DNA of 41,056 bases from IMG/VR virus record IMGVR_UViG_3300042887_002870, positions 1 to 41,056 of that record; one strand, 5' to 3'. The translations under genes and the position numbers were made by a program. The notes under the pieces were generated by a model. The model was not told the DNA's origin. It saw only the letters and a program-made list of their open reading frames with translations, and ran no database searches. The number at the start of each line of letters is the position of its first letter. Position 1 is the stretch's first letter. The DNA is from a virus. Of this stretch, positions 3,033 through 22,717 are shown one piece after another.

Positions 3033-3824
3033 TTAATCCTCTACTGTTTCGGGTGTTAAAAAGGGCTGGTCAGTAATCCCATCCTCGTATGCGTGGGCTT
3101 CTGCCAGCCGCTCTCTTTCTTTGTCCATTGCTAGTCGCATTTTTTCCATGTCGGTTCCTGCCGACTTTCTAAAATCAGAATCTAAAATAATTTTTTTAAT
3201 TAAAGACGCAAAGGTTGTCTTAGAGTCTTCGATAGCTTTGATTCTCTGCTCTCTTGTACCCTTTAAGTCTTTTAACATTGCGGACTTTTTAGTTTGTAAG
3301 TCTTTATAGTCTCGTGATAGGGCTTCTTGAGAGGCCCGTAGTACAGCCCCTTGTCTTTGTAAATTAATAACTAAGTCGTGGTCCATCTGATCGGGCGGCA
3401 AATTATTCTCTTCAATAATTTTCTGCTCAATATCAGAAATAGCTTTAATGTTCTCATTTTGAGATTTAAGACTTCGATTCATTAAAATTTCTAATTTAAT
3501 CGTATCAACAATCTGTATCTCTTCTGTGTGAAAAACATCATCCCTAAACTGGGACCACATTTTTTTCCAGTGAAAAATAAACATTTCCAGTTCATCTTCA
3601 GAGAATTGACTTTCAAGATCGCTCCAGTATGCTTTTTGTTTCAACTCGTTATAGGCTTCGACCTCTTTTTTATCAGAGGCCGAAAACCCTAAATTTTGTT
3701 GAATCCATAGCTTTACTGATTTGGGGTCACGATCAAGAACAGCGGCCATATTCTCATAAGACATATCTTTAATATGTTCTTTAATGTACGCCTGTTCAGA
3801 AAGATCGAGTCGCCCTTTACGCAT
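3033..3824 (-). CDS. HTH and coiled-coil protein, possible small terminase subunit
   Basis: This 263-residue protein has an N-terminal helix-turn-helix-like stretch (about residues 8-45, with ENMAAVLDRDPKSVKLWI), a charged middle region and long heptad-rich helices at about 140-225. DNA-binding HTH plus oligomerising coiled coil, and a place in the terL operon, would suit a small terminase. I see no motif that proves it. It overlaps the sigma-like gene by 8 bp and ends 3 bp before gmd. Confidence 0.5.
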   Translation of the reverse strand: MRKGRLDLSEQAYIKEHIKDMSYENMAAVLDRDPKSVKLWIQQNLGFSASDKKEVEAYNELKQKAYWSDLESQFSEDELEMFIFHWKKMWSQFRDDVFHTEEIQIVDTIKLEILMNRSLKSQNENIKAISDIEQKIIEENNLPPDQMDHDLVINLQRQGAVLRASQEALSRDYKDLQTKKSAMLKDLKGTREQRIKAIEDSKTTFASLIKKIILDSDFRKSAGTDMEKMRLAMDKERERLAEAHAYEDGITDQPFLTPETVED

Positions 3825-4350
3825 AAAAACTCTCCAGAATTGAACGCAACTCAGCTACTAAATTATTCTTTTTAGTTTTTGTTAGCGGCAAGTCATTTTT
3901 AAATCTTAAGAAATCGCTTCGCATATTAGCAGGTAAATGAATATCAATATACTCATAGAGTTCGCGCTCTTCTAGGGACTCCGAACACTCTGAATTAACA
4001 ACAAGGTACTTTATATTATCAATGCTAGAAGCATCCAATAACTTTTTCTTGCCGTTTTGAATGATCTGGGCTTTTCCCTCGTCGGGGCGATAGTAATTAT
4101 CCCTTTTAAAGTTGTTCAATCTATTTTTTATGTGAATCGAAAGAAAATTTTCAAGGGGCCGAACACCATCGTAACGGTTCATTGCTTCCATTCCAATAAT
4201 AAATGCCTCCTGCGCAATATCTTCCTTTTCATAATTAGGAAAAGTATATTTTCCCGCTAAACGATTAGACACTCTCGTTATTACTGCTACTACCTGATCC
4301 TGCGTCATGTTCTGGGGCAACTTCACTGTTTTCGCTCCCGCCTTTGGCAT
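3817..4350 (-). CDS. Sigma-70-like factor (phage late sigma type)
   Basis: The product is 177 residues. Residues about 40-90 read like sigma region 2: YEKEDIAQEAFI, then MNRYDG, then IKNRLNNFKRDNYYR, the core-binding and -10-reading helices. A weak region 4-like segment may follow, but I cannot see a clear HTH. T4 gp55-type late sigma factors have this size and layout. It sits second in the terminase operon, so it may direct late transcription (inference). The ATG at 4350 has no strong ribosome site; ATG 4308 is an alternative start. Confidence 0.72.
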   Translation of the reverse strand: MPKAGAKTVKLPQNMTQDQVVAVITRVSNRLAGKYTFPNYEKEDIAQEAFIIGMEAMNRYDGVRPLENFLSIHIKNRLNNFKRDNYYRPDEGKAQIIQNGKKKLLDASSIDNIKYLVVNSECSESLEERELYEYIDIHLPANMRSDFLRFKNDLPLTKTKKNNLVAELRSILESFYA

Positions 4351-7180: not shown

Positions 7181-7183
7181 TAA

Positions 7184-9363: not shown

Positions 9364-9392
9364 TTGACTTATTAGGTGAAAAAGACGATAAT
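9364..9392 (+). promoter_or_regulatory. Promoter P9364
   Basis: TTGACT, 17-bp spacer, GATAAT, A/T tract upstream; it drives 9418, 9594 and 9860. Confidence 0.82.
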
Positions 9393-9417
9393 ATATATAT
9401 CAAGAAAGGGCATAGCG

Positions 9418-9597: not shown

Positions 9598-9842
9598 CTG
9601 TCAGAGAATTAATCAATATTTTAAATTCAATTCCCGAAGATACTGAAGTCAGAATGATTGACACCCGTTCTCTCTGCGGAACTGAACATATACATTATAA
9701 TCTTGTAGAGGATGATTTAACATCATTATTCTACAAGGCTGAAGACAAGGTTTTACTATTGTCTGCACTTGAAAGAAAAGGAATTGTAGAGTGGGGCTGG
9801 GGCGACAATATAAAGTCATATACTGATGTAGAGATAAAATAA
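9594..9842 (+). CDS. VRELI-family small phage protein 1
   Basis: ATG 9594 overlaps the upstream TGA. This 82-residue product begins MTVRELINILNSIPEDTEVRMID. That start, a helix then a strand with 'leucine, proline, Asp/Glu, Val', is common in a widespread family of small phage proteins of unknown role. Relatives in this window are at 9860 and 16670. Confidence 0.78.
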   Translation: MTVRELINILNSIPEDTEVRMIDTRSLCGTEHIHYNLVEDDLTSLFYKAEDKVLLLSALERKGIVEWGWGDNIKSYTDVEIK

Positions 9843-9859
9843 CTATAGAGGGCATAATC

Positions 9860-10066
9860 ATGAGTGTCAGAGAACTAATCCAACAATTGTCAAAGATCGA
9901 AAATCAAGATCTTGAAGTTGTCTATGGCGATATCGATTATGAGAACTTTCCGGGTATTGATTTCTATTTGTGGAATTTAGACTATCCATCTTATGAAATA
10001 AAAGATGGTACAACTGTAGTAAATATCGGATGTCGAAGCGATAATGCAATTACAATTATCAATTGA
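9860..10066 (+). CDS. VRELI-family small phage protein 2
   Basis: This 68-residue product begins MSVRELIQQLSKIENQDLEVVYGD, related to the gene just upstream, with AGAGGG ahead of it. There is no terminator after it: its TGA stop is within the outer TTGACAACTG arm of intergenic module copy 6. Confidence 0.78.
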   Translation: MSVRELIQQLSKIENQDLEVVYGDIDYENFPGIDFYLWNLDYPSYEIKDGTTVVNIGCRSDNAITIIN

Positions 10067-10187
10067 CAACTGTCGAGACGTAAACCCTTACCCTATAAGG
10101 ACTTAGGGGGGGGGGCCGCCCCGGCGGCGCTGCCGTAAGTCCTTACTGCGTAAGTACTTACGATTCTACATTTGTCAACTGACAACT
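10062..10187. repeat. Four-box intergenic module, copy 6
   Basis: Boxes are TAAACCCTTA, TAAGGACTTA, TAAGTCCTTA and TAAGTACTTA; the core includes an 11-G run then CCGCCCCGGCGGCG. The left outer arm overlaps the stop codon of the 9860 gene. Confidence 0.85.
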
Positions 10188-10234
10188 ATAAAAGCACAGC
10201 TCAAAAATATTTTTAAAATTTTCCAGAATTTCTC

Positions 10235-10263
10235 TTGCAATGGTTCTGAAAAGACGATATATT
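10235..10263 (+). promoter_or_regulatory. Promoter P10235
   Basis: TTGCAA, 17-bp spacer, TATATT, A/T tract upstream; weaker boxes than its neighbours. It drives the acidic protein gene. Confidence 0.65.
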
Positions 10264-10317
10264 ATATACATGGTTAAGGTAATTCGCCTGACCGAAAAAC
10301 CCCTAGCGGAGCTTATC

Positions 10318-10632
10318 ATGAGCGACTTCATCAATGACATTCAGGCTGACGAACTGGTCAATGGCAACTATTATATGGGCGAATACCAGCCCACAGATCA
10401 GGATCTGGCCGATATGGCCGAAGCCTTTCAACTGTCGGACGATGAAACCGACGATATGCTGGCGGATATGCACGATTCCGCTGGCCACTGGGCCGATGAG
10501 TATGCCGAAGCTCATGAGGCCAATTTGGATTGGGATTGGATGGCGGAAATGGCGGATGATGATGCCATTACAGATGTCGGACACGGCAAGGATTGGGGCG
10601 ATACGGGCGAGTACGATTGCAATGACTGGTAA
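10318..10632 (+). CDS. Highly acidic protein, DNA-mimic-like
   Basis: ATG 10318 is chosen for CGGAG at 8-10 bases upstream and because the frame before it covers the promoter. The 104-residue product has about 32 Asp/Glu, one Lys and no Arg. Acidic residues sit in helical runs such as DDETDDMLADMHD and MADDDA, and there are five Trp. This is the profile of phage DNA-mimic inhibitors (anti-restriction or anti-defence proteins), but I recognise no family. Its codons are clearly more GC-rich than those of its neighbours, which hints at recent acquisition. Confidence 0.78.
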   Translation: MSDFINDIQADELVNGNYYMGEYQPTDQDLADMAEAFQLSDDETDDMLADMHDSAGHWADEYAEAHEANLDWDWMAEMADDDAITDVGHGKDWGDTGEYDCNDW

Positions 10633-10633
10633 G

Positions 10634-10660
10634 AAAAGCGGCCTTCGGGCCGCTTTTCAT
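10634..10660 (+). terminator. Rho-independent terminator
   Basis: The stem AAAAGCGGCC ttcg GGCCGCTTTT, a stable UUCG-type tetraloop hairpin, follows the acidic protein gene. Confidence 0.88.
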
Positions 10661-10671
10661 TTTGGCTTATA

Positions 10672-10792
10672 TTTTACAAATGACAGTTGTCTAAGTTATT
10701 GTGGCGTAAGGACTTAGGATAGGCCCGTCCGGGCGGCGCTGCCGTAAGTCCTTACTACGTAAGCACTTACAGCTCTACAATTGTCAAGTGTA
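10672..10792. repeat. Four-box intergenic module, copy 7
   Basis: Boxes are TAAGTTATTG, TAAGGACTTA, TAAGTCCTTA and TAAGCACTTA around CCCGTCCGGGCGGCG. Next to it, at about 10817-10855, are further TTGTCAACTGTCAATTGT and ACAATTGTAA elements. No rightward gene follows; the next gene is on the minus strand. Confidence 0.85.
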
Positions 10793-10858
10793 ACACGCTA
10801 TATAGTCGGAGTTGGCCGACATTTGTCAACTGTCAATTGTAAGATACAATTGTAAAAT

Positions 10859-10890
10859 AAAATGCAATCGGCCTAAACCGATTGCATTTT
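10859..10890. terminator. Bidirectional terminator
   Basis: The perfect stem AAAATGCAATCGG / CCGATTGCATTTT around CCTAAA can end both the leftward 10898 gene and rightward read-through. Confidence 0.85.
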
Positions 10891-10897
10891 ACAGTTA

Positions 10898-11167
10898 TTA
10901 TAGGCTATTTGCAAATGCCCGAATTGAAACATTTTTTGGCTTGTGCCATTCATCCTCATACAATTGTTCGAAGGTATCATCTGAAATGTTAAACTCTGAA
11001 TTTTCAAATCTCCCCGGCATATCTGCGCCGAAATTATCCTCAATATAATCTCTCAATTCCTGAATTTTTTCTTCCCGTAATTCATTATAGCATTTTGAAC
11101 AATAGTTCAAGCCCTCAGAATCGACATGATTAACTTCAACCGAGCTATCGCAATATGCACAATTCAT
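10898..11167 (-). CDS. Zinc-ribbon acidic protein on the minus strand
   Basis: ATG 11167 is chosen because AGGA lies 8 bases ahead; ATG 11176 is too close to that site. The 89-residue product has CAYC and, about 20 residues later, CSKC, a zinc-ribbon pair, followed by an acidic helical tail (YEDEWHKP). It is the only leftward gene in this rightward region and has its own promoter and terminator. No family is recognised. Confidence 0.78.
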   Translation of the reverse strand: MNCAYCDSSVEVNHVDSEGLNYCSKCYNELREEKIQELRDYIEDNFGADMPGRFENSEFNISDDTFEQLYEDEWHKPKNVSIRAFANSL

Positions 11168-11223
11168 TAGAATCATCCTATCTAGTGTCTAGGTTAAGCG
11201 AACTGCTTTAACCTTATATATAT

Positions 11224-11252
11224 AATATATCGGATAGAGTATTAAAAATCAA
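11224..11252 (-). promoter_or_regulatory. Leftward promoter for 10898 gene
   Basis: Read on the minus strand: TTGATT, 17-bp spacer, TATATT, preceded by a T/A tract. Confidence 0.7.
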
Positions 11253-11296
11253 TAGCAAAAAAGAAAAATAAAAATTATTTTTTTTAAAAAAATTAC

Positions 11297-11325
11297 TTGA
11301 CTTTCAAGGCGGCATAGTCGATAAT
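11297..11325 (+). promoter_or_regulatory. Promoter P11297
   Basis: TTGACT, 17-bp spacer, GATAAT and ATATATATAAG; back to back with the leftward promoter at 11224. Confidence 0.83.
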
Positions 11326-11368
11326 ATATATATAAGAGATCAAGAGACCACTAGGCAAGGGATCAAAA

Positions 11369-14452: not shown

Positions 14453-14460
14453 GTCTTAAC

Positions 14461-14570
14461 CTTTTACAGTTGTTATGCTGTAAGTGCTTATGGTGTAAGG
14501 ACTTAGGACTAGCCCCGCCCGGAGGGGTGTCGTAAGTCCTTACTGCGTAAAGACTTACGTAAATGTTAAA
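14461..14570. repeat. Four-box intergenic module, copy 9
   Basis: Boxes are TAAGTGCTTA, TAAGGACTTA, TAAGTCCTTA and TAAAGACTTA with spacers TGGTG and CTGCG and core CCCCGCCCGGAGGGG. The right outer arm is short. Confidence 0.87.
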
Positions 14571-14590
14571 ATAGAACGATTAGTTAATTT

Positions 14591-14665
14591 GGGGGGATTA
14601 GAGGGATTAGGAGGGTTGGGGGATCTAGGAGGTTTGGGTAGCTTGGGCGGTATAGGGGGTTTTGG
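14591..14665 (+). repeat. G-rich tract, possible G-quadruplex array
   Basis: Over about 75 bases the plus strand carries at least seven runs of three to six G separated by short A/T-containing spacers (for example GGGGGGATTAGAGGG). It has no coding potential and lies directly before two TTAAGATTCG repeats, as at 22269. Confidence 0.7.
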
Positions 14666-14678
14666 CACACCTTATCTA

Positions 14679-14776
14679 TTAAGATTCGCGCCAACATAGC
14701 ACAGTCAGCTAACTTTAATAAGTGTAACAGTTTATGTATTAAGATTCGCCACACTAAGCTATAGTCAGCTAATTTT
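14679..14776 (+). repeat. TTAAGATTCG/AGTCAGCTAA repeat pair, locus 1
   Basis: Two units (14679-14716 and 14739-14776) each read TTAAGATTCG, 13-14 variable bases, AGTCAGCTAA, and then a T-run. GTAACAG-TTAT lies between units, as at locus 2 (22342). The unit ends about 30 bp before promoter P14807. Confidence 0.85.
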
Positions 14777-14806
14777 TAAAATATATATTTTTTTACCCTA
14801 ATCCTC

Positions 14807-14834
14807 TTGACTTATAATGTCGATAATGTATAAT
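14807..14834 (+). promoter_or_regulatory. Promoter P14807
   Basis: TTGACT, 16-bp spacer, TATAAT; it drives two co-translated membrane peptides. Confidence 0.8.
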
Positions 14835-14877
14835 AGTAATATAACAAGAGAGTCAAGTAGCAAGAAAGGAAAAGAGT

Positions 14878-14991
14878 ATGTCAGAAGTCGATATGGTATC
14901 TTTGGCTGTTCAGGTTTATTGCTCGTCTTTAGCTTTTAGTGTTGGGCTATTGACGGGTGATTTGATCAAAAAGATTTGGAGGGCAATCTAA
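14878..14991 (+). CDS. 37-residue membrane protein
   Basis: AAAGGAAAAG precedes the ATG. MSEVDMVSLA is followed by one hydrophobic stretch (CSSLAFSVGLLTG) and a basic end, IKKIWRAI, so a single N-out, C-in helix is likely. Its stop overlaps the start of the next gene (TAATG). Confidence 0.65.
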   Translation: MSEVDMVSLAVQVYCSSLAFSVGLLTGDLIKKIWRAI

Positions 14992-15080
14992 TGAAGAAGT
15001 TTATATTTCCTATTACATGGCTTATCATGTCTGTATTAGGAGGGATAATTGGCGTGTGGCTTTCTCGGAATGTGCTATAA
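14991..15080 (+). CDS. 29-residue membrane protein
   Basis: It begins on the stop codon of the previous gene. MKKFIFPITWLIMSVLGG is followed by IIGVWLSRNVL, a single membrane helix with a Lys-Lys start. The coupled pair of tiny membrane proteins resembles phage membrane-modifying or holin-type accessory pairs, but no family is recognised. Confidence 0.62.
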   Translation: MKKFIFPITWLIMSVLGGIIGVWLSRNVL

Positions 15081-15084
15081 AGAC

Positions 15085-15112
15085 TTGACAACCAACAATA
15101 TTCTGATAGAAT
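15085..15112 (+). promoter_or_regulatory. Promoter P15085
   Basis: TTGACA, 16-bp spacer, TAGAAT, four bases after the previous stop. Confidence 0.8.
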
Positions 15113-15131
15113 ATAACAAAGGAGAAGAATC

Positions 15132-15404
15132 GTGAACTACACAGAAAATGGTTATTACGAAGTTCGACTACGAAATCCTTATGAAATACCATATGTCCAT
15201 GTTGCATTTTTTAGGAACTACGATACTTGTATAGAGTACATATATAAACAGCCTAATCCCAAAAATTACGTTGTTCGTGAATGTAGTTCAGTCAAAATTT
15301 TTGACTCAGTGGAAGAATACGAACAGTTCAAGCTGAACGAAACAAGAGATAGACTTATGAAAAATTTAACGCCTATTGAAAAAAAAGCGTTGGGTTTGGC
15401 TTGA
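15132..15404 (+). CDS. Hypothetical protein with GTG start
   Basis: GTG 15132 follows AAAGGAGAAG by the right distance and no ATG fits. The 90-residue product is rich in Tyr and Asn at the start and charged and helical at the end. No family is recognised. Its TGA is inside the next TTGACA. Confidence 0.72.
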   Translation: MNYTENGYYEVRLRNPYEIPYVHVAFFRNYDTCIEYIYKQPNPKNYVVRECSSVKIFDSVEEYEQFKLNETRDRLMKNLTPIEKKALGLA

Positions 15405-15428
15405 CAAGGCAGATTGGTCTGGTATAAT
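15401..15428 (+). promoter_or_regulatory. Promoter P15401, -35 overlaps stop codon
   Basis: TTGACA, 16-bp spacer, TATAAT. Confidence 0.87.
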
Positions 15429-15473
15429 AGAGTAGTAAACAACAAGTGATCCCCCTTTCAGGAGATATGTCGG

Positions 15474-15698
15474 ATGAAAGAAGTCGCTCAAGCATGTATT
15501 GCAAAACTTTTTGAAGATTGTATTAAATTGCTAATAAATGGCCTTTTGGTCTATATTAGCTGGAATACAGTTATGACAAAATTCAATTGGCCAACATTAA
15601 CATATATCGAGTGTATGGCCCTTCTTGTATTAATCATTCAGATTTGCGACTATTTTTCTATCACTGTAAAAATTAAAGAAATGCCAGAAAAAACTTGA
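15474..15698 (+). CDS. Small membrane protein, two helices
   Basis: AGGAGA precedes the ATG by about 10 bases. The 74-residue product has hydrophobic runs at about 16-30 (LLINGLLVYISW) and 46-60 (ECMALLVLIIQI), with short charged ends. It could be a holin-like or superinfection protein, but nothing in the sequence decides this. Its TGA is inside the next TTGACA. Confidence 0.7.
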   Translation: MKEVAQACIAKLFEDCIKLLINGLLVYISWNTVMTKFNWPTLTYIECMALLVLIIQICDYFSITVKIKEMPEKT

Positions 15699-15722
15699 CA
15701 AGTTTAAAATCTGGTGTATAAT
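15695..15722 (+). promoter_or_regulatory. Promoter P15695 for tRNA cluster, -35 overlaps stop codon
   Basis: TTGACA, 16-bp spacer, TATAAT; it drives Tyr, Leu, Lys and Thr tRNAs. Confidence 0.87.
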
Positions 15723-15732
15723 TGAAGTACAA

Positions 15733-15812
15733 GCGTGTTGACCGAGTTGGATAACGGGCCTGACTGTAAATCAGGTGTCTCAGACTTAAGAGGTTCGAGT
15801 CCTACCTGATCA
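15733..15812 (+). tRNA. tRNA-Tyr(GTA) with non-pairing acceptor stem
   Basis: The anticodon arm CCTGA CTGTAAA TCAGG gives GTA, and a long variable arm (GTCT/AGAC) fits a class II Tyr tRNA. The D-arm CCG...CGG is present. But the T-stem pairs only partly (AGAGG/CCTAC) and the expected acceptor strands GCGTGTT and CTGATCA do not pair. It may be decayed, edited or trans-assembled; ends are approximate. Confidence 0.55.
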
Positions 15813-15869
15813 GCTCCGCCACCATGTGTGGTTGGAAATCGTGGGGACCATTAACGTGGCCCCTAGTAT

Positions 15870-15943
15870 GGTGACGTAGCCCAACGGCAGGAGGCAACAG
15901 TTTTAGGAACTGTACAGTGTAGGTTCGAATCCTATCGTCACTA
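15870..15943 (+). tRNA. tRNA-Leu(TAG)
   Basis: The acceptor GGTGACG/CGTCACT, anticodon arm ACAGT TTTAGGA ACTGT and T-arm GTAGG TTCGAAT CCTAT are intact. The variable region is only five bases, unlike the long arm usual for bacterial tRNA-Leu. The ~60 bases before it (15813-15869) hold hairpins but no gene. Confidence 0.8.
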
Positions 15944-15946
15944 CTT

Positions 15947-16018
15947 GGATCTATGGTGTAATTGGCAGCACCGCAGACTTTTAATCTGTTAGTCTGGGTT
16001 CGAGTCCCAGTAGATCCA
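15947..16018 (+). tRNA. tRNA-Lys(TTT)
   Basis: The acceptor GGATCTA/TAGATCC and anticodon loop CTTTTAA with stem GCAGA/TCTGT make a canonical cloverleaf. Confidence 0.93.
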
Positions 16019-16024
16019 TTAGAA

Positions 16025-16097
16025 GCTGGGATAGCACAATTGGCGGTGCTTCTGTTTTGTAAACAGAGGGTTGTGGGTTCGAATCCCACTCCTAGCT
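16025..16097 (+). tRNA. tRNA-Thr(TGT)
   Basis: The acceptor GCTGGGA/TCCTAGC, anticodon arm TCTGT TTTGTAA ACAGA and T-arm GTGGG TTCGAAT CCCAC are canonical. Confidence 0.93.
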
Positions 16098-16098
16098 C

Positions 16099-16126
16099 TT
16101 GACTTCTTCAAACCTTGTGGTATAAT
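16099..16126 (+). promoter_or_regulatory. Promoter P16099 giving a possibly leaderless mRNA
   Basis: TTGACT, 16-bp spacer, TATAAT. The ATG of the next gene begins seven bases after the -10, where transcription should start. Confidence 0.82.
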
Positions 16127-16132
16127 AAGAGT

Positions 16133-16291
16133 ATGAAACGAGAAATCAAATTCACAGTCCATACGGATATCCGAAAAGCTAAACGTAAGCATCGTGACCA
16201 CCAAAGCGGTGGCGGAGAACACGACTCTCGCCCTAAGCGAGAGCGAACTCGTGAACGTCAAGATAATTCATGGAAGTCCCTTGACAACTAA
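16133..16291 (+). CDS. 52-residue basic protein, possibly leaderless
   Basis: ATG 16133 follows the -10 TATAAT by six bases, so there is no room for a ribosome site. The product is MKREIKFTVH followed by a stretch very rich in Arg, Lys and His, a likely nucleic-acid binder. The coding end contains the next -35 (CTT GAC AAC TAA). No family is recognised. Confidence 0.62.
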   Translation: MKREIKFTVHTDIRKAKRKHRDHQSGGGEHDSRPKRERTRERQDNSWKSLDN

Positions 16292-16308
16292 AAAAAATAT
16301 GATAAAAT
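16281..16308 (+). promoter_or_regulatory. Promoter P16281 within the end of the upstream gene
   Basis: TTGACA, 16-bp spacer, TAAAAT; the -35 encodes the last residues of the 16133 product. Confidence 0.82.
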
Positions 16309-16381
16309 ATCATTGTGTCCAATATTCATGCAAGCGTTGAGGTATCTGCCATGTTGATGTCTATAATAAATGCGAGGATAT

Positions 16382-16459
16382 ATGGTGTTGTTTATTGTGT
16401 TTATTTGTGGTTGTATATTTGCAATTCATGAAGATAATATGGAGAAAAAAAGTGGGTAG
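16382..16459 (+). CDS. 25-residue membrane peptide
   Basis: GAGGAT lies just ahead of ATG 16382. MVLFIVFICGCIFAI is a membrane helix with an ICGC motif, followed by a polar tail. Its TAG stop overlaps the GTG start of the next gene by a few bases. Coding is inferred from ribosome site and coupling only. Confidence 0.5.
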   Translation: MVLFIVFICGCIFAIHEDNMEKKSG

Positions 16460-16673
16460 GTCATACAGAGACTCAAACAGTGACAAATATTCAGACAAGC
16501 AAGGTGAGAACCAAGACTTTAGACGAAAGGTTAAACAGCGTCTAAAATCTATTGACTTTGATGAGGAGGAACTTGAACTTCCAGAACAGGAACCTCATTT
16601 TCGTAAAGGCAAGGTTAAAGTAGAGAAGCGTGATAAGTGGAATCGTGGCCCTGACAAGAGGTTGTTATCATGA
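16452..16673 (+). CDS. Charged hypothetical protein with GTG start
   Basis: GTG 16452 is preceded by GGAG at eight bases; an upstream ATG at 16428 in the same frame is an alternative. The ~73-residue product is almost all charged residues with a central acidic patch (DEEELELPEQE). It ends ATGA-coupled to the next gene. No family is recognised. Confidence 0.62.
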   Translation: MGRSYRDSNSDKYSDKQGENQDFRRKVKQRLKSIDFDEEELELPEQEPHFRKGKVKVEKRDKWNRGPDKRLLS

Positions 16674-16876
16674 CTTGGCGAGAATTAGGCGAAGCGATTG
16701 AAAATATGGAACCTCGTTTCCTAGATACAGAAATTCAATTGTACGATGCTACGGAGGGCATTACATATCATGATAATGTAGAGCTAATGGAAGATGAAAC
16801 ACATGATGACTATACCATTGACTTGAATCAACCACAAATTTGGTTCAACATGGATGAGACAACAGAGGAGCTGTAA
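16670..16876 (+). CDS. VRELI-family small phage protein 3
   Basis: ATG 16670 overlaps the upstream TGA. MTWRELGEAIENMEPRFLDTEIQLYD matches the start of the 9594 and 9860 products. The rest is acidic. The stop codon is in the loop of a GAGGAGC/GCTCCTC hairpin. Confidence 0.75.
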   Translation: MTWRELGEAIENMEPRFLDTEIQLYDATEGITYHDNVELMEDETHDDYTIDLNQPQIWFNMDETTEEL

Positions 16877-16889
16877 GCTCCTCTGTTAT
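16862..16889 (+). terminator. Hairpin at 16670 gene stop
   Basis: The stem ACAGAGGAGC/GCTCCTCTGT surrounds the stop codon; the T-run after it is weak, so it may only attenuate. Confidence 0.6.
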
Positions 16890-16953
16890 AAGGAGTTAGG
16901 TTTATCCCGCCGAGGGAAAGTTCGTAAATGCTTACTAATTAATAACTTAGATT
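16888..16953. repeat. Intergenic box module, copy 10 (degenerate)
   Basis: TAAGGAGTTA, a short GC core (CCCGCCGAGGG), TAAATGCTTA and TAATAACTTA remain; box 1 and the outer arms are missing. Confidence 0.65.
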
Positions 16954-17016
16954 ATGGAGGTTAGCAAGTGGAAGAAGATGTACTAGACTTTTCTGCTGAT
17001 TTTTGGGAAAAAAGAC

Positions 17017-17045
17017 TGGACACCGAGCCTGATTCTGCCGATAAT
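17017..17045 (+). promoter_or_regulatory. Promoter P17017
   Basis: TGGACA, 17-bp spacer, GATAAT followed by ATATATAG; it drives the lipoprotein gene. Confidence 0.75.
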
Positions 17046-17076
17046 ATATATAGTCAAGAACAGAAAGGACTGTCTT

Positions 17077-17259
17077 ATGCGTCAGATGATTTTCGGGGTT
17101 TTGATCCTGTCTCTGTGTGGATGCAAACACCTTCAGACGAAACAGGAGAAGTCAGTCATTCTTCAGCCCCCAACCGCCGAGCTAAAGGAAGAGCCAAAGC
17201 AAAAAATTGTAAACATCACTCTGCTGCGAGTTGAGAATTTTACAATAAAAGCCTTTTGA
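17077..17259 (+). CDS. Small lipoprotein, Rz1-like outer-membrane spanin candidate
   Basis: GAAAGGA precedes ATG 17077. The 60-residue product starts MRQMIFGVLILSLCGCKH: Arg, hydrophobic core, then an LCGC lipobox with Cys16 as the lipidated residue. A Gln/Pro-rich mature part (LQPPTAELKEEPKQ) follows. Small proline-rich lipoproteins of this kind are typical o-spanins in phage lysis, but no i-spanin overlaps it, so a host-surface role is also possible. Confidence 0.7.
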   Translation: MRQMIFGVLILSLCGCKHLQTKQEKSVILQPPTAELKEEPKQKIVNITLLRVENFTIKAF

Positions 17260-17263
17260 GGAC

Positions 17264-17291
17264 TTGACAACCGGCAGCTCTATGGTATAAT
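17264..17291 (+). promoter_or_regulatory. Promoter P17264
   Basis: TTGACA, 16-bp spacer, TATAAT. Confidence 0.88.
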
Positions 17292-17311
17292 AGTAGTGTA
17301 GGGAGGAAACG

Positions 17312-17482
17312 ATGGAAGAAAACTGCAAGATCTACATCAGCAAGACTCGGATGCTTGTTGATGCCTATGTGAACGATGAGGGCGATGTATTCTACAAAGC
17401 TCCGTGTCATGGTGGATATTACTTCTATCCTATGACAAAAGTATTTATGGACAAGTTCGGTGTAACAATCTATCCGGGGTGA
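17312..17482 (+). CDS. Hypothetical 56-residue protein
   Basis: GGGAGG precedes the ATG. The product has KIYISKTRMLVDAYVNDEGDVFYKAPCHGGYYFYP, a compact beta-like pattern. It ends three bases before the next gene. No family is recognised. Confidence 0.72.
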   Translation: MEENCKIYISKTRMLVDAYVNDEGDVFYKAPCHGGYYFYPMTKVFMDKFGVTIYPG

Positions 17483-17485
17483 CAT

Positions 17486-17689
17486 ATGATTTTCTTCTAC
17501 AAAGTGACGGATTTGAAAAATGGTAAAACATACTCTCAGCGTACTCATATTGATGAGTTTAGCTCCTATCGGGATTTTATTGGCTATCTGGAAGGCCAGA
17601 ACCAATTTTGGGTTGGCCAGTTGCGATTCGAAGAAGATCGAAAAAAAATCGCAGAAGACAGCTTGACAAGAGAACTTTTAGTGGTATAA
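17486..17689 (+). CDS. Hypothetical protein whose 3' end is a promoter
   Basis: This 67-residue product has a FYKVTDLKNGKTYSQ beta start and a charged helix end. No clear ribosome site is free of the upstream gene, so re-initiation is likely. The last codons, from Leu-Thr to the stop, encode TTGACA and TATAAT of the next promoter; the stop TAA is inside the -10. Confidence 0.7.
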   Translation: MIFFYKVTDLKNGKTYSQRTHIDEFSSYRDFIGYLEGQNQFWVGQLRFEEDRKKIAEDSLTRELLVV

Positions 17690-17690
17690 T
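17663..17690 (+). promoter_or_regulatory. Promoter P17663 embedded in CDS
   Basis: TTGACA, 16-bp spacer, TATAAT, fully inside the 17486 coding end; stop codon TAA lies in the -10. Confidence 0.87.
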
Positions 17691-17737
17691 AGAGTAGTGA
17701 AGTGAAGAAGAGTTCAGACAACAAAGAGAGGATTGAG

Positions 17738-18061
17738 ATGATCGCTAATTTGACCGCTGGTAACAAAGTCAAGTTCCAGTATATTGACCGTGTTCGTGAC
17801 TATTCAGTTTTTCCAACTGCTACTTCTTATGACATCGACACTTACGAAGGTACTGTTGTTGATGTACGAGATATTAGCATTGATAAGTTGTCACGAGAAA
17901 CTGTTGCTCGTCATCCAGAAGTTGAGCGGTCACGATACTTGGTGACTATACAGTTGTCAGACAACAAGATCAAGTCATTCTATGACGGTCGAGTTGTCAA
18001 CATCAAGAAAATTAACAAGAATTTTATCTCACGACTAGTTGACAAGTTGACTGGTAAGTGA
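17738..18061 (+). CDS. Hypothetical 107-residue protein
   Basis: GAGGATTGAG precedes ATG 17738. The first half looks like an SH3-like or small beta-barrel (NLTAGNKVKFQYIDRVRDY, then YEGTVVDVRDI), the rest is charged. No family is recognised. Its end carries the -35 and spacer of the tRNA promoter. Confidence 0.75.
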   Translation: MIANLTAGNKVKFQYIDRVRDYSVFPTATSYDIDTYEGTVVDVRDISIDKLSRETVARHPEVERSRYLVTIQLSDNKIKSFYDGRVVNIKKINKNFISRLVDKLTGK

Positions 18062-18067
18062 TATAAT
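18039..18067 (+). promoter_or_regulatory. Promoter P18039 for tRNA cluster, embedded in CDS
   Basis: TTGACA, 17-bp spacer, TATAAT; the stop of the 17738 gene is in the spacer. Confidence 0.87.
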
Positions 18068-18098
18068 AAGAGTGTGGTTAAAGGCCACACTCATCTAT

Positions 18099-18172
18099 GG
18101 TGCTGTAGCCTAAGTGGCAAAGGCATTCGGTTGTCAACCGAAAGATAGCGGGTTCAAATCCCGTCAGCACCG
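18099..18172 (+). tRNA. tRNA-Asp(GTC)
   Basis: The acceptor GGTGCTG/CAGCACC and anticodon arm TTCGG TTGTCAA CCGAA are canonical. A GTGTGG...CCACAC leader hairpin precedes it. Confidence 0.94.
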
Positions 18173-18177
18173 CTTAT

Positions 18178-18250
18178 GCCCCCATCGTCTAGTGGCCTAG
18201 GACGCAAGGTTTTCAACCTTGAGACCGGAGTTCAATTCTCCGTGGGGGTA
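18178..18250 (+). tRNA. tRNA-Glu(TTC)
   Basis: The acceptor GCCCCCA/TGGGGGT, D-arm GTCTAGTGGCCTAGGAC and anticodon arm CAAGG TTTTCAA CCTTG are canonical for Glu. Confidence 0.93.
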
Positions 18251-18252
18251 CT

Positions 18253-18376
18253 GACCATATGCCAGAGTGATAATGGACTTGTTATGCAAAATGGCCGATC
18301 AGTTTTTTACATCACTTGCGAATGATATAGACGAACAAGCAAGCAAGTATCTCAGGTTTGATTCCTGATATGGTCT
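18253..18376 (+). tRNA. Interrupted tRNA (possibly Cys) with ~55-nt insert
   Basis: The acceptor GACCATA/TATGGTC and T-arm TCAGG TTTGATT CCTGA are perfect and the D-arm is CCA...TGG. The length is 124 nt. The strands ACTTG and CAAGT, which would form the anticodon stem, are 62 nt apart. Removing about 18284-18338 would leave loop TT-GCA-AG, i.e. Cys, an isotype otherwise missing here. The repeated CAAGCAAG makes the boundary uncertain. Confidence 0.6.
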
Positions 18377-18379
18377 TAT

Positions 18380-18468
18380 GCGAGTGTGGCGAAATTGGCG
18401 AAACGCCTCGGACTTAAAATCCGAGACCCAAGCGGTAAACATTGTGGGTTCGAGTCCCACCACTCGTA
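18380..18468 (+). tRNA. tRNA-Leu(TAA)
   Basis: The acceptor GCGAGTG/CACTCGT, anticodon arm TCGGA CTTAAAA TCCGA and a long variable arm are canonical for class II Leu. Confidence 0.93.
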
Positions 18469-18505
18469 CTCCAGACCCTACGCAAGTCTGGAATCATTCT
18501 TGTTG

Positions 18506-18543
18506 AGGCCGCCTTGTTCTCGTTGAATGAGGCGGCTCCTTTT
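18506..18543 (+). terminator. Hairpin between tRNA-Leu and tRNA-Arg
   Basis: GAGGCCGCCT and AGGCGGCTCC pair around a 15-base loop and run into TTTT; it could be a terminator or a processing hairpin. Confidence 0.5.
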
Positions 18544-18545
18544 AT

Positions 18546-18618
18546 GCAGTCGTAGCCTAGTGGATGAGGCATCAGATTTCTACTCTGTTTTACGAGGGTT
18601 CGAATCCTTCCGACTGTA
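18546..18618 (+). tRNA. tRNA-Arg(TCT)
   Basis: The acceptor GCAGTCG/CGACTGT and anticodon loop TTTCTAC give TCT; the T-arm is GAGGG TTCGAAT CCTTC. Confidence 0.9.
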
Positions 18619-18624
18619 CTTTAT

Positions 18625-18655
18625 AAAGCCACTGCGAAAGCGGTGGCTTTTTTCG
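18625..18655 (+). terminator. Rho-independent terminator after tRNA cluster
   Basis: The stem AAGCCACTGC/GCGGTGGCTT around GAAA is followed by TTTTTT. Confidence 0.88.
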
Positions 18656-18664
18656 TATCTACTT

Positions 18665-18735
18665 TCCACACAAGGATTTACGTTACGCCCCCTAGGGGAG
18701 CCACCTAAGTCCTTGCTTCGCAAGTACTTACATCA
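18665..18735. repeat. Intergenic box module, copy 11 (shortened)
   Basis: Boxes 2-4 remain (AAGGATTTA, TAAGTCCTTG, AAGTACTTA) around CGCCCCCTAGGGGAG; box 1 and the outer arms are lost. Confidence 0.72.
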
Positions 18736-18769
18736 GCAAAAAATATTTTTAAAAAATACACTTCAGCTA

Positions 18770-18797
18770 TTGACTTCTCTTGTCGATATATTATAAT
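18770..18797 (+). promoter_or_regulatory. Promoter P18770
   Basis: TTGACT, 16-bp spacer, TATAAT, A/T tract upstream. A purine-rich leader with no start codon follows, then P18844. Confidence 0.8.
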
Positions 18798-18843
18798 AGT
18801 AGTGTAAGAGAGAACGAGAGGGGAAGAAAAAAAGAAAAGCCTC

Positions 18844-18871
18844 TTGACTCTCTAGGAAATCGTGATAGAAT
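18844..18871 (+). promoter_or_regulatory. Promoter P18844, second in tandem
   Basis: TTGACT, 16-bp spacer, TAGAAT, 46 bp after P18770; both drive the 18919 gene. Confidence 0.75.
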
Positions 18872-18918
18872 AGTAGTGTAGTCAGTAACCAGTAACCAAG
18901 TCTAAGGAGATTAGCTCA

Positions 18919-19152
18919 ATGTTCGGATTCAACAACAGCTTCAAGGTTGGCAACGGTGTTCAGCTTAAGTATCAGGTTGGTGGGACATCTAATATTCTGA
19001 GCAATCGGAATAATGGCGTTGTGCGTAAGGTTGGCATCAGCAAGCGGGGTGCTTACGTTCTTGTGACGTATCGCTGTAGCAAGACTGGTTCTAATCGTAT
19101 CGCAAACTTCTCAACTGCTAAGATGATTGACCCAGTAATTTTTTCTAGCTGA
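18919..19152 (+). CDS. Hypothetical small beta-barrel-like protein
   Basis: AAGGAGATT precedes the ATG. The 77-residue product has VGNGVQLKYQ, GVVRKVGISKRGAYVLVTYRC, a KOW/SH3-like turn pattern seen in small nucleic-acid-binding barrels. No family is firmly recognised. It has two tandem promoters. Confidence 0.75.
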   Translation: MFGFNNSFKVGNGVQLKYQVGGTSNILSNRNNGVVRKVGISKRGAYVLVTYRCSKTGSNRIANFSTAKMIDPVIFSS

Positions 19153-19156
19153 GGTC

Positions 19157-19184
19157 TTGACAAGTAGAGTTCCTATCGTATAAT
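19157..19184 (+). promoter_or_regulatory. Promoter P19157
   Basis: TTGACA, 16-bp spacer, TATAAT. The leader (AGTAGTGTAGTCAGTAACCAAGTCTA) is nearly the same as that after P18844. Confidence 0.87.
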
Positions 19185-19235
19185 AGTAGTGTAGTCAGTA
19201 ACCAAGTCTAGTATCTCAAGTAAGGAGAAAGCATA

Positions 19236-19550
19236 ATGGCTAAGGGTAAAGTTCAGATCACAGCAGAACAGTTCGGCGAACAGTATGTTAAGATGTTCAA
19301 TGATGGTTTCAATTCTGAGACCGGAGAAACGTCTGCCACTATTAACGATGTTGCTGCGTTCTTTGGTATGAAGCCAACCGTGGCTTATCAGAAGGTAGTG
19401 CAGATTAACAAGCTGCTTGCACCGTCTGGTCAGAGATTGCCCAAAATGTCAATGTCAAACGCAGAGCGTAAGAATCGAATCGACCTTACCCGACTCGCAG
19501 CTTTGGCTGCGTCTGCCAAGACCCGCAATTTGCTATCGCAGATTGACTAA
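19236..19550 (+). CDS. Hypothetical HTH-like protein
   Basis: TAAGGAGAAA precedes the ATG. The 104-residue product has a likely helix-turn-helix at about 37-60 (INDVAAFFGMKPTVAYQKVVQINK), as in small DNA-binding regulators, then a basic helical tail. It may be a phage transcription regulator (inference). Confidence 0.7.
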   Translation: MAKGKVQITAEQFGEQYVKMFNDGFNSETGETSATINDVAAFFGMKPTVAYQKVVQINKLLAPSGQRLPKMSMSNAERKNRIDLTRLAALAASAKTRNLLSQID

Positions 19551-19570
19551 AATATATTTCAGGAGAGGGC

Positions 19571-19598
19571 TTGACTTTCAAGCTCTCTCTGATATAAT
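19571..19598 (+). promoter_or_regulatory. Promoter P19571
   Basis: TTGACT, 16-bp spacer, TATAAT. Confidence 0.85.
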
Positions 19599-19628
19599 AG
19601 CAGTACAAGAAAGGATAATAAGATATAC

Positions 19629-19814
19629 TTGATTGACAAACCGATATATGCTGTTCTACTTCCAGATGGCACTCTTGCCACAGACAATTGGGATGACAGT
19701 GGCTCAATATGGATAACGCTCAGTAAGAGCTATGCCGAAAAGGAAGCAAAGCATACTCCAAATGCCAAGGTTGTTCTATACTCAGACTATATAAAGGAAA
19801 AGAATCATGATTGA
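19629..19814 (+). CDS. Hypothetical protein with TTG start
   Basis: No in-frame ATG is present; TTG 19629 follows AAAGGA by 14 bases, slightly far. The 61-residue product contains PIYAVLLPDGTLATDNWDDSG, a strand-turn-strand pattern, then a charged helix. It overlaps the next gene by 8 bp. Confidence 0.62.
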   Translation: MIDKPIYAVLLPDGTLATDNWDDSGSIWITLSKSYAEKEAKHTPNAKVVLYSDYIKEKNHD

Positions 19815-20019
19815 AGAACCGAAATACCGCTTTGTACTGGTAAATGATCAAACTGGCGAGAGTTTTGATCTTGATACCAGACATGTATGTAATGATGGGA
19901 TTGGCAAAGATAGCCGCCCTGATGTATGGTCTAGTTGCTCTGTTCGCAATGAGGCTTTGGAGCGTCTGGGATATAGTGTAAAAGTGGTCAAAAATGATCT
20001 TGACAATGATGAATCGTGA
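19807..20019 (+). CDS. Hypothetical protein
   Basis: AAAGGAAAAG precedes ATG 19807. This 70-residue product begins EEPKYRFVLVNDQTGESFDL. No family is recognised. Its last codons (from CTT GAC) form the -35 of the tRNA-Ile promoter. Confidence 0.7.
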   Translation: MIEEPKYRFVLVNDQTGESFDLDTRHVCNDGIGKDSRPDVWSSCSVRNEALERLGYSVKVVKNDLDNDES

Positions 20020-20027
20020 GGTATAAT
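20000..20027 (+). promoter_or_regulatory. Promoter P20000 embedded in CDS end
   Basis: TTGACA, 16-bp spacer, TATAAT; the TGA of the 19807 gene is in the spacer. Confidence 0.87.
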
Positions 20028-20044
20028 AGAGTCATAAACAATCG

Positions 20045-20118
20045 CGGCCTATAGCTCAATTGGTTAGAGTCCACTCCTTATAAGAGTGCGGTTGCGGGTT
20101 CGAATCCCGCTAGGCTGA
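20045..20118 (+). tRNA. tRNA-Ile(TAT)
   Basis: The acceptor CGGCCTA/TAGGCTG, anticodon arm CACTC CTTATAA GAGTG and T-arm GCGGG TTCGAAT CCCGC are canonical. Anticodon TAT reads ATA, a rare codon in many bacteria. Confidence 0.92.
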
Positions 20119-20190
20119 TTTTAACGCATATCTTGAACGAATGTGTATAATATTATGTAGAGATACATAACTTATACAAAGGAGATCAAA

Positions 20191-20730
20191 ATGATACCTG
20201 AATCAAAGATATGCAATATGTGCGGAATAGAGAAATCAAATTCTGAGTATGGAATAAGGAAACACAAGACAAGCGTGTATCTTAAGCCATACTGCAAGAA
20301 GTGCTGTGTACAATCCAAAAAAATAGGTCGAGAGAAAGCAAGAAAACAACTACCAGAGAAATTTTGCTATGTATGCAACTCTGTATTATCTGGAATGCAG
20401 AAAAAGTTCTGCTCTAGAAAGTGTAAATCAAAAAAGCAGTACAATACTGTATACGGAAATCAACTCAAAAGAGGTCTAAAAAGAAAAGAAGAACTAGTTG
20501 ACAAATTCGGTGGATGTTGTACAATATGTGGATACTCAAAATGTCTAGCAGCTCTTCATTTTCATCATATCGATCCAACGATGAAAGAATTTGCACTAGA
20601 TAGTAGAAAATTAAGAGGAACCACAATAGAGAGCATAGAAAAGGAAGCCAGTAAATGCATTCTGGTATGCTCTAACTGTCATGCAGAAATACATCATCCA
20701 GACCACATGAGAAAGGAGCGTAGCTCATGA
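20191..20730 (+). CDS. HNH endonuclease with extra zinc knuckles
   Basis: AAAGGAGATC precedes the ATG. This 179-residue protein has CNMC and CKKC, CYVC and CSRKC, then CTICG, LHFHHIDP and CSNCHAEIHH, so three or four zinc pairs precede and frame an HNH core. Its codons are more AT-rich and AGA-rich than neighbours. It sits between a tRNA and a small gene and is coupled by ATGA overlap to the latter. A free-standing homing nuclease is likely. Confidence 0.87.
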   Translation: MIPESKICNMCGIEKSNSEYGIRKHKTSVYLKPYCKKCCVQSKKIGREKARKQLPEKFCYVCNSVLSGMQKKFCSRKCKSKKQYNTVYGNQLKRGLKRKEELVDKFGGCCTICGYSKCLAALHFHHIDPTMKEFALDSRKLRGTTIESIEKEASKCILVCSNCHAEIHHPDHMRKERSS

Positions 20731-20987
20731 TGCTTCCAAAAGTCTCAGAAGCTGTAGCTGAGAATGTACAGATTCAGGCAATGCGTAATTTGGTAGAGTA
20801 TATGAAGAATAAGTCTGTCACTGTCGCAAAAGAGAATCCATTCTTAGCTGCTGCTATAGATGGCATGGCAAAAGAAATCTCAGAAGGTGATGATCACCTG
20901 TACAAAAGAGTCTACCTGTCAATGCTGGTCATTGCTGACATTATCAACACTCAAATGGAAGTTGATGATTTAAAATTTTGGAATTAG
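20727..20987 (+). CDS. Hypothetical helical protein
   Basis: It starts inside the HNH stop (ATGA) with GAAAGGAG ahead. The 86-residue product is mostly helical, with MKNKSVTVAKENPFLAAAIDGMAKEI in the middle. No family is recognised. Confidence 0.72.
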   Translation: MMLPKVSEAVAENVQIQAMRNLVEYMKNKSVTVAKENPFLAAAIDGMAKEISEGDDHLYKRVYLSMLVIADIINTQMEVDDLKFWN

Positions 20988-20990
20988 CAC

Positions 20991-21018
20991 TTGACAACGG
21001 GCAAAGCTCTGGTATAAT
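20991..21018 (+). promoter_or_regulatory. Promoter P20991
   Basis: TTGACA, 16-bp spacer, TATAAT, four bases after the previous stop; it drives the DUF932-like gene. Confidence 0.88.
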
Positions 21019-21066
21019 AAGAGAGTAAGAAACAAGAACGTAGTTCTAATAGCAAGGAAAGAAAAG

Positions 21067-22266
21067 ATGAGTAAGCTAGAGATTGGTGCTGGTAACGGTG
21101 GGGCTTTTGTCAAGACTCTGGTTAATCTTGAAACTGGTGAGACGGGCTTTCAGGAAGGGTTCCACGTTCACAAGTCTTGGTTCCGTAAGTGTAAGACATA
21201 TGATGAGGTTATGGAGTCTATCGCTAAATCTGAGGCCGACCGTGAGGATCAGCTTGTAGAGTTAAAGAATATTCATCCTGTGGTTAATCAGGATGGTAAG
21301 TTTGCATTTGAAGTAGGTAGTGAGCAATACGTGCCGACAGACTGGGCTTTGTCTCAGTTCTCAAGCCGTCTGAATCTGCCTTCCTCAACTGTTATTCGTG
21401 AGTTGGTCAATCAGCCTGACTCTGACTGGGAAGATGCTGATGTAGCTGTTCGCATTGCTAAGAATGCCATTCGTCGTGGCGATGCTGATAAGAAGTATCG
21501 ACTACGCACCTATAAGGATGGTACGCTTCGTGCATGGGTGACTGACAAGTATGCACCTGTTGATAATCGATGGTACATGGAAACGCTGAAGGATATTCTT
21601 CCGGGTTCTATGTACTCTCACTGGCGAGGTAGTGACGATACCATCTATGGTAATGTCCTGCTGCCAGATTCAATCATCGACTATGGACAGGATGATGACA
21701 GTGACTATGGCGGAATGCTCAGTATTAGTAACTGCGAGATCGGCAGGCGGCGACTGGGCCAGCGTCCTAGTATATTCCGTTCAATCTGCATGAATGGATG
21801 TATCTGGGATCAGGTCAAGGGCGAGATGATCAATCAGCGTCATATTGGACAGATCGATCTTGTTGAACTGCGTAAGCGTATGGTTGACAACATTGAACTG
21901 CAATTAAAGCTGGTTCCTGAAGCTGTTCGCAAGTTTATCAGCACAAGAGACCTGAAGGTGGAAGGTTCGCTCAAGGCGACTCTCGCTGCTGTCTGTATCA
22001 AGAATCGAGTTGAGCGTAAGCACTCGCAGGAGATTCTGGAACAGTTTGTGACCTTTGAGAAGGATCACCGAAGTCTGTTCGGTGTGATCAATGCGATCAC
22101 TCGTGCTGGCCAGAAGTTTGGCGATGAAGAGTGGGTTAAGTTTGATGAGCTTGGCGGAAAGCTCGCAGGTTACGATGATGGGGAATGGGGATCGGTTACG
22201 AGGTATGCAGCGACTCTAGGGGTTAAAGAGGTTGACGAGACTTTTATGGCTGGGGTAGCTGGGTAA
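21067..22266 (+). CDS. DUF932-like phage/plasmid protein
   Basis: AAGGAAAG precedes the ATG. The 399-residue product has LRAWVTDKYAPVDNRWYMETLKDI in its first half and IFRSICMNGCIWD in the second, features of the DUF932 (phage/plasmid-like) family. The family has no settled function; members are often among the most common accessory genes of large phages and plasmids, sometimes near recombination genes. It uses fewer rare codons and is more GC-rich than its neighbours. G-rich DNA starts at its last codons. Confidence 0.78.
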   Translation: MSKLEIGAGNGGAFVKTLVNLETGETGFQEGFHVHKSWFRKCKTYDEVMESIAKSEADREDQLVELKNIHPVVNQDGKFAFEVGSEQYVPTDWALSQFSSRLNLPSSTVIRELVNQPDSDWEDADVAVRIAKNAIRRGDADKKYRLRTYKDGTLRAWVTDKYAPVDNRWYMETLKDILPGSMYSHWRGSDDTIYGNVLLPDSIIDYGQDDDSDYGGMLSISNCEIGRRRLGQRPSIFRSICMNGCIWDQVKGEMINQRHIGQIDLVELRKRMVDNIELQLKLVPEAVRKFISTRDLKVEGSLKATLAAVCIKNRVERKHSQEILEQFVTFEKDHRSLFGVINAITRAGQKFGDEEWVKFDELGGKLAGYDDGEWGSVTRYAATLGVKEVDETFMAGVAG

Positions 22267-22268
22267 GA

Positions 22269-22312
22269 TGGGAAGGCTGGGAGGGGGCTGGGGAAACCCG
22301 ACCCTCTCCTGC
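22269..22312 (+). repeat. G-rich tract with hairpin, locus 2
   Basis: The run GGGAAGGCTGGGAGGGGGCTGGGG is followed by CCCGACCCTCTCC. It can form either a G-quadruplex or a hairpin that ends the DUF932 transcript. Like 14591 it comes just before TTAAGATTCG repeats. Confidence 0.65.
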
Positions 22313-22341
22313 CACCACTGCTTATTATACACCTTATATAA

Positions 22342-22429
22342 TAAGATTCGTCAGATCGTATAGAGTCAGCTAACTTTGTAACAGATTATTAATTAAGATT
22401 CGCACGTTAAGCGGTAGTCAGCTAACTTT
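22342..22429 (+). repeat. TTAAGATTCG/AGTCAGCTAA repeat pair, locus 2
   Basis: Two units (22342-22377 and 22393-22429), each with a 13-base variable spacer, separated by GTAACAGATTAT. CACCTTAT precedes the first unit at both loci. The second unit ends 12 bases before the ATG of the 22441 gene. Confidence 0.85.
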
Positions 22430-22440
22430 GGAGAAAACCA

Positions 22441-22629
22441 ATGGACGATGATAAGATTACTAAAGCAGAATTTCTAGCTGATTTCTTTTGTTCTTCTCTT
22501 GCTAAGGAAGTATATAAAAGTTTATCAGACGTTAGTAATAATAATGAAGTAGTTAGATCTTTAGTTAATTTTGCAGATAAGTTATGGGAGGAAATTAATG
22601 AATGTCAGGAAAATGAGACAGATTATTAA
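22441..22629 (+). CDS. Small acidic helical protein between direct repeats
   Basis: TTGGAGAAAA precedes the ATG. The 62-residue product is helical and acidic. The same ACAGATTATTAATTAAGATTCG sequence lies on both sides: before it at 22381 and across its own stop codon at 22618. The gene therefore sits inside a repeat array. I see no good -35/-10 ahead of it; the repeat itself may supply the promoter. Confidence 0.68.
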   Translation: MDDDKITKAEFLADFFCSSLAKEVYKSLSDVSNNNEVVRSLVNFADKLWEEINECQENETDY

Positions 22630-22666
22630 TTAAGATTCGCAGGATGAGTCACAGTCAGCTAAGTTT
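22630..22666 (+). repeat. TTAAGATTCG/AGTCAGCTAA repeat, fifth unit
   Basis: TTAAGATTCG, 13 bases, AGTCAGCTAAG; it overlaps the stop of the 22441 gene. Confidence 0.83.
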
Positions 22667-22681: not shown

Positions 22682-22717
22682 AAACCCCGGAGTGTTTAGC
22701 TCTGGGGTTATTTTTTT
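22682..22717. terminator. Terminator between convergent genes
   Basis: AACCCCGGAG/CTCTGGGGTT around TGTTTAG with T-runs on the right and A-runs on the left; it suits both the 22441 gene and the leftward 22747 gene. Confidence 0.85.

Follow-up and report, generated by a model that had tools for sequence, protein, structure and literature searches.

Promoters read by sigma factors of the ECF type, such as sigma-E and SigH, consist of two elements, -35 and -10, whose usual blocks are GGAAC and CGTC. In T4 late and SPO1 middle transcription, a phage-coded sigma redirects the host polymerase to promoter sequences found only in the phage. The promoter/stem-loop repeats known as PeSL lie between small dispensable genes of T4-like phages, and these genes differ between relatives. 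We know of no regulatory signal in the large uncultured phage group considered here, and a search of the literature on planctomycete phage promoters and related topics returned nothing relevant. Cluster K mycobacteriophages carry SAS and ESAS elements, for which a role in gene expression has been proposed, the ESAS halves being 17-nt imperfect inverted repeats with a variable spacer, located near GGGATAGGAGCCC (PMC12699233).

Our analysis concerns a two-part element of about 53 bp, TGKAWYANNYTATNTAWTNNGATTCG-N13/14-AGTCAGCTAACTTT, of which five copies, all on the + strand, are present in the window (the whole 41,056-nt stretch that was analyzed). We propose, from the sequence and its context, that this unit may be a phage-specific promoter read by host RNA polymerase with a phage sigma factor, a reading to which we give roughly an even chance. 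The copies fall at two loci, A and B, each preceded by a G-rich tract:

14591..14658, + strand: G-rich tract of locus A, TTTGGGTAG-like with a period of about 9 nt; its position is kept in two relatives
14663..14716, + strand: unit 1, with GATTCG at 14683 and GTCAGCTAA ending at 14712
14723..14776, + strand: unit 2, with GATTCG at 14743
22252..22311, + strand: G-rich tract of locus B, whose 3' part is the 5' arm of the hairpin ending the 399-aa gene
22325..22377, + strand: unit 3, the ATAAGATTCG variant, with GATTCG at 22345
22377..22429, + strand: unit 4, with GATTCG at 22397
22614..22666, + strand: unit 5, with GATTCG at 22634; this unit overlaps the 3' end of the gene at 22441

Exact matches to TTAAGATTCG-N-AGTCAGCTAA occur at 14679, 14739, 22393 and 22630, and 100 shuffles gave none; the copy at 22341, in unit 3, starts with ATAAGATTCG and is one base off the exact string of the other four. 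The pattern AAGATTCG-N-GTCAGCTAA fits all five copies, the reversed-pattern control gave zero, and a pattern search of the window found no sixth copy. The architecture described in the original prediction holds up well. The order of G-rich tract, CACCTTAT, unit, GTAACAG and second unit is present at both loci; the spacers, given there as 13-14 bp, measure 14 bp in the units of locus A and 13 bp in those of locus B; and the fifth unit, placed at the end of the gene at 22441, starts right at the stop codon of that ORF. CACCTTAT and GTAACAG turn out to be two forms of a single variable stretch, TGKAWYANNYTAT, that extends the unit on its left.

Scanning viral contigs for the pattern turned up the unit in two more records, IMGVR_UViG_3300034107_000314 (155 kb; G001) and IMGVR_UViG_3300042868_006487 (35 kb; G002). 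A weight matrix finds five copies in each, with no sixth on either strand of the whole 155-kb record. The three phages share one layout, with two tandem units at locus A, upstream of a cluster of tRNA and small genes, and three at locus B, downstream of the phrog_1362 gene and around a gene of the 22441 type, so that the two loci flank tRNA genes. A gene for an Ro60-like RNA-binding protein with a vWA domain (28843-30348 in the window) also lies near tRNA genes. All 15 copies are co-oriented with the neighboring genes, the distance from GATTCG to AGCTAA is 17 or 18 bp in every one, and the split of spacer lengths between loci A and B is the same in all three phages. Tandem units are spaced 52 or 53 bp apart in three of four tandem pairs and 60 in the remaining one. 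Aligned, the 15 copies show TGKAWYANNYTATNTAWTNNGATTCG, then a partly conserved spacer, then AGTCAGCTAACTTT, and conservation stops at CTTT; GTCAGCTAA is invariant by construction of the search, while the rest of AGTCAGCTAACTTT is nearly invariant. Locus B is framed by the following features:

21067..22266, + strand: gene for a 399-aa protein (phrog_1362), preceding locus B in all three phages
22441..22629, + strand: gene for a 62-aa acidic helical protein, conserved in both relatives (48% and 44% identity)
22683..22709, + strand: terminator hairpin directly after unit 5 (z -5.4)

The phrog_1362 protein of the window is about 64% identical to those of the relatives. That the roughly 53-bp element stays constant although the neighboring proteins are 44-64% identical implies strong selection on non-coding DNA. 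We rejected the idea that the unit is read as in-frame protein, since the frame is open before the 22441 homologue in both relatives and is not open in the window or at locus A.

Beyond these three phages, the first-scan matches in L006-L009 fall in unrelated contigs without the other features of the unit, and we treated them as chance, as we did three single matches in unrelated bacteria from a scan of genome contigs. No units were found in more distant relatives with a phrog_1362 gene, nor in fragments with an ECF-type sigma, which are without the phrog_1362 region. Megablast against phage records gave no match, and tblastn of the 399-aa protein gave one weak match, to Pelagibacter phage HTVC112P. 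Three phrog_1362 phages, L020 (6955-7428), L021 (10384-10893) and L022, have a different tandem repeat of their own, with a ATAGCAAGTGT core, which precedes small ORFs downstream of the phrog_1362 gene.

How are the genes beside the units transcribed? Fifteen sigma-70-type promoters with 11 or 12 of 12 matches serve genes of the window region, and one sigma-70-like promoter follows the locus A pair:

14807..14834, + strand: sigma-70-like early promoter after unit 2, TTGACT-16-TATAAT

The original prediction had stated that the gene at 22441 has no other visible promoter, and in the window this is what we see: no sigma-70-type promoter lies on the + strand from 21567 to the gene, and no near-perfect one follows that at 20991, which serves the preceding gene. 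Both relatives do have a near-perfect sigma-70-type promoter upstream of the 22441 homologue, placed before the unit. In each of the three phages, the Shine-Dalgarno site of the 22441 gene follows directly on the right end of a unit. A fourth such case comes from the 155-kb relative, where a 45-aa ORF, not present in the other two phages, lies between the first locus-B unit and the 22441 homologue. There a single unit stands between an intrinsic terminator and this small ORF, whose Shine-Dalgarno site comes immediately after the unit, with no sigma-70-type promoter of more than 9 of 12 matches between terminator and ORF. Past the last unit, stems of differing sequence begin 1-2 bases after CTTT(T) in all three phages, being weak in the two relatives (z -0.65 and -0.75) and individually significant only for the window terminator. 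The 22441 product itself is predicted to fold into three helices and has no structural match.

We favor the promoter reading on several grounds: the -35/-10-like geometry, within the roughly 16-18 bp expected between the blocks of a sigma-70-family promoter; the unit lying flush with a Shine-Dalgarno site; the lack of a sigma-70-type promoter before the 22441 gene in the window; the sigma factors encoded by the phages; the order terminator-unit-gene in the 155-kb relative, with nothing else in the gap; and 15 co-oriented copies in three phages, among which the distance between half-sites differs by no more than one base. The differing stems just past CTTT(T), such as a new RNA 5' end would give, are a weaker argument. 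Moreover, over the 15 units there are no consensus RNA base pairs, and no Rfam match specific to the units reaches its cut-off, so the unit is probably recognized as DNA rather than as RNA. Of the three readings originally offered, then, a promoter for a phage factor fits best, while the replication origin and the recombination site fare poorly.

From this arrangement we infer promoter activity, start site, cognate sigma and timing as follows. GATTCG would be the -35 element and AGCTAA, the end of GTCAGCTAA, the -10 element, with the 17-18 bp between them as promoter spacer, and transcription would start at a base just after CTAACTTT(T). For unit 4 the start would fall near 22430, where the 22441 gene has its Shine-Dalgarno site. 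The left extension TGKAWYANNYTATNTAWT, AT-rich and at about -57 to -38, could act as an upstream element or activator site. The units would then switch on the 22441 gene and the other small genes adjoining them, those of locus A driving the small-gene/tRNA operon and unit 5 a short terminator-ended RNA, presumably at a stage when the early sigma-70-type promoters are not enough.

Which sigma factor might read the unit? All three phages have a region-2-only sigma where the early and late genes diverge, and in the window it is

3817..4350, - strand: sigma-70-family protein (sigma-1), for which Pfam shows region 2 only; its gene is the first in the divergent region

The 155-kb relative also encodes sigma-2, a full-length ECF-like protein with regions 2 and 4 (TIGR02937, E 6e-11, residues 16-163), whose model is of low confidence (mean pLDDT 60.6) and whose structure matches are mainly sigma factors. 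This ECF-type sigma was found only in that record among the three with units, the window being a fragment of its phage; it would be the likeliest partner of the unit, a pairing that we infer. As to the host, the ORFs at 40-75 kb of the 155-kb relative include DUF1559 (PF07596, SBP_bac_10) and N_methyl domains, together with those of DNA polymerase III alpha, RecA and class II ribonucleotide reductase. Planctomycetes, in which DUF1559 is a typical domain, are judging by gene content probably the host of this phage group.

A separate motif, TGTGTATA(AT), lies upstream of genes at 4565 (-), 20142 (+) and 23593 (+) in the window and at 6508, 36793, 63477, 87181, 130858, 138203 and 141267 in the 155-kb relative. 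It could be a second promoter-like class of these phages, one that may belong to the region-2-only sigma. Elsewhere in the window, long direct repeats lie between operons at 5266-11350 (for example 245 nt at 5358 and 6943, 80% alike), which suggests duplicated small genes with their promoters.

Several points count against a promoter. Five copies at two loci in 155 kb are few for a sigma regulon, and the many constrained positions, spread over about 53 bp, exceed the usual needs of a sigma promoter. Unit 5 faces directly into a terminator. The TGTGTATA class serves other genes, and the ECF-type sigma, with its low-confidence model, comes from the 155-kb relative only. Because the structural region of that phage is without the unit, and because TGTGTATA stands before other genes, the unit is not a general late promoter. 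Finally, the left part of the unit is richer in AT than the proposed -10, and TATNTAWT in that part could be the true -10.

The last point leads to an alternative that we consider unlikely. Here the left part, TGKAWYANNYTATNTAWT, would be the promoter, a single -10-like box for the region-2-only sigma, and the stretch from GATTCG to AGTCAGCTAACTTT would be a conserved 5' leader, bound as RNA or acting in translation. TATNTAWT is indeed the most AT-rich part of the unit and looks like the TGTGTATAAT class that precedes other genes, and a similar TGTAACACCTTATGTAATCAG, without the right part, lies upstream of early operons in both relatives. However, the would-be -10 box varies between copies at its second and fifth bases, and a leader acting as RNA sits poorly with the missing consensus structure.

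A second alternative is that the units are operators for a phage regulator or DNA-organizing protein (a repressor, partition or loop protein) and not promoters at all. The region has other paired signals, of which the one nearest locus A is

14465..14557, no strand assigned: imperfect palindrome pair of the TAAGTNCTTACTNCGTAAGNACTTA type, 52 bp apart around a GC-rich center, upstream of locus A

Nine such pairs occur in the window between 5654 and 14557, 52-55 bp apart around a GC-rich center and upstream of early promoters. Single TAAGTNCTTACTNCGTAAGNACTTA palindromes lie at 16925 and 18706, and paired ones are found also in both relatives and in a distant phage, L025 (2103/2156). Since AGTCAGCTAACT is itself a near-palindrome, and since the prevailing spacing of the tandem units is like that of the palindrome pairs, an operator has something to recommend it. 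But it would leave unexplained both how a gene between terminator and unit is transcribed and why the unit fits so tightly to the Shine-Dalgarno site, and we regard it as rather improbable.

We think it quite improbable that the units are recombination or gene-cassette sites, that is, repeats between which genes are gained or lost. The extra 45-aa ORF of the 155-kb relative is what such a site might produce, and the unit spacer sequences look shuffled between the locus B positions; yet genes gained beside a promoter repeat would leave an identical picture. Moreover, neither of the half-sites TTAAGATTCG and AGTCAGCTAA is an inverted repeat of the other, exchange between A and B is hard to square with spacer lengths that are locus-specific in all three phages, every genome seen has both loci intact, and no integrase or invertase domain turned up among the scanned ORFs of at least 150 aa on the 40-131 kb side.

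The G-rich tracts were originally thought to form, with the units, a shared G-quadruplex module. What survives of this is position: the only two G4-type motifs of the window are both beside units, and of the seven in the three phages six come immediately 5' of a unit array, on its strand. At locus B the tract belongs to an intrinsic terminator, the hairpin being strong in the window (z -3.96) and a clear terminator with a T-run in both relatives, while a fold of 14455-14670 gives the locus A tract no C-rich partner arm of its own. Thus the two tracts differ in kind while keeping conserved positions. A coding repeat was rejected for the G tract, which is open in one phage and has stops in another. 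A replication origin seems very improbable: locus A does join a G tract and iteron-like units to an AT-rich run, with tract and units kept in three phages, but there are two separate loci, the G tract precedes the units instead of following them and at locus B belongs to the terminator, and GC skew makes no turn at the loci: in the 155-kb relative it does not turn at 112-120 kb, and its only lasting sign changes fall near 38 and 131 kb, at the points where the genes reverse direction.

Returning to the promoter reading, how does the unit compare with the systems described at the outset? Like PeSL, the units are repeats between small genes, with gene content differing between relatives; unlike PeSL, they contain no stem-loop and occupy two loci only. 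The likeness to SAS and ESAS lies in short, conserved, two-part phage elements with a spacer just upstream of start codons, whereas the halves of the unit are unrelated to each other, its spacer is fixed within one base and its sequence is different, neither the GGGATAGGAGCCC start-associated motif nor the 17-nt inverted repeats by which those elements are defined being found in the unit alignment (PMC12699233). With T4 late and SPO1 middle promoters the unit would share the use of a phage-coded sigma that diverts host polymerase, but it has a different consensus, occurs in very few copies and does not precede structural genes. ECF promoters and the unit both have a pair of short blocks at a near-fixed distance, a -10 side beginning GTC and a short way to the coding start, and one relative encodes an ECF-like sigma. 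The blocks themselves differ from GGAAC and CGTC, however, and the long conserved upstream extension, the tandem arrangement and the restriction to two loci set the unit apart from ECF promoters. We therefore offer, as a tentative possibility, a new promoter class for a phage sigma of the ECF type, in which the upstream recognition block is extended and a G-rich tract immediately precedes the array; confined to two loci that bracket the tRNA cluster, it would control a small acidic protein and short RNAs. In any case, the unit is a promoter candidate defined by its sequence and open to testing, in a large group of uncultured phages, and it is linked here to phage-encoded sigma factors.
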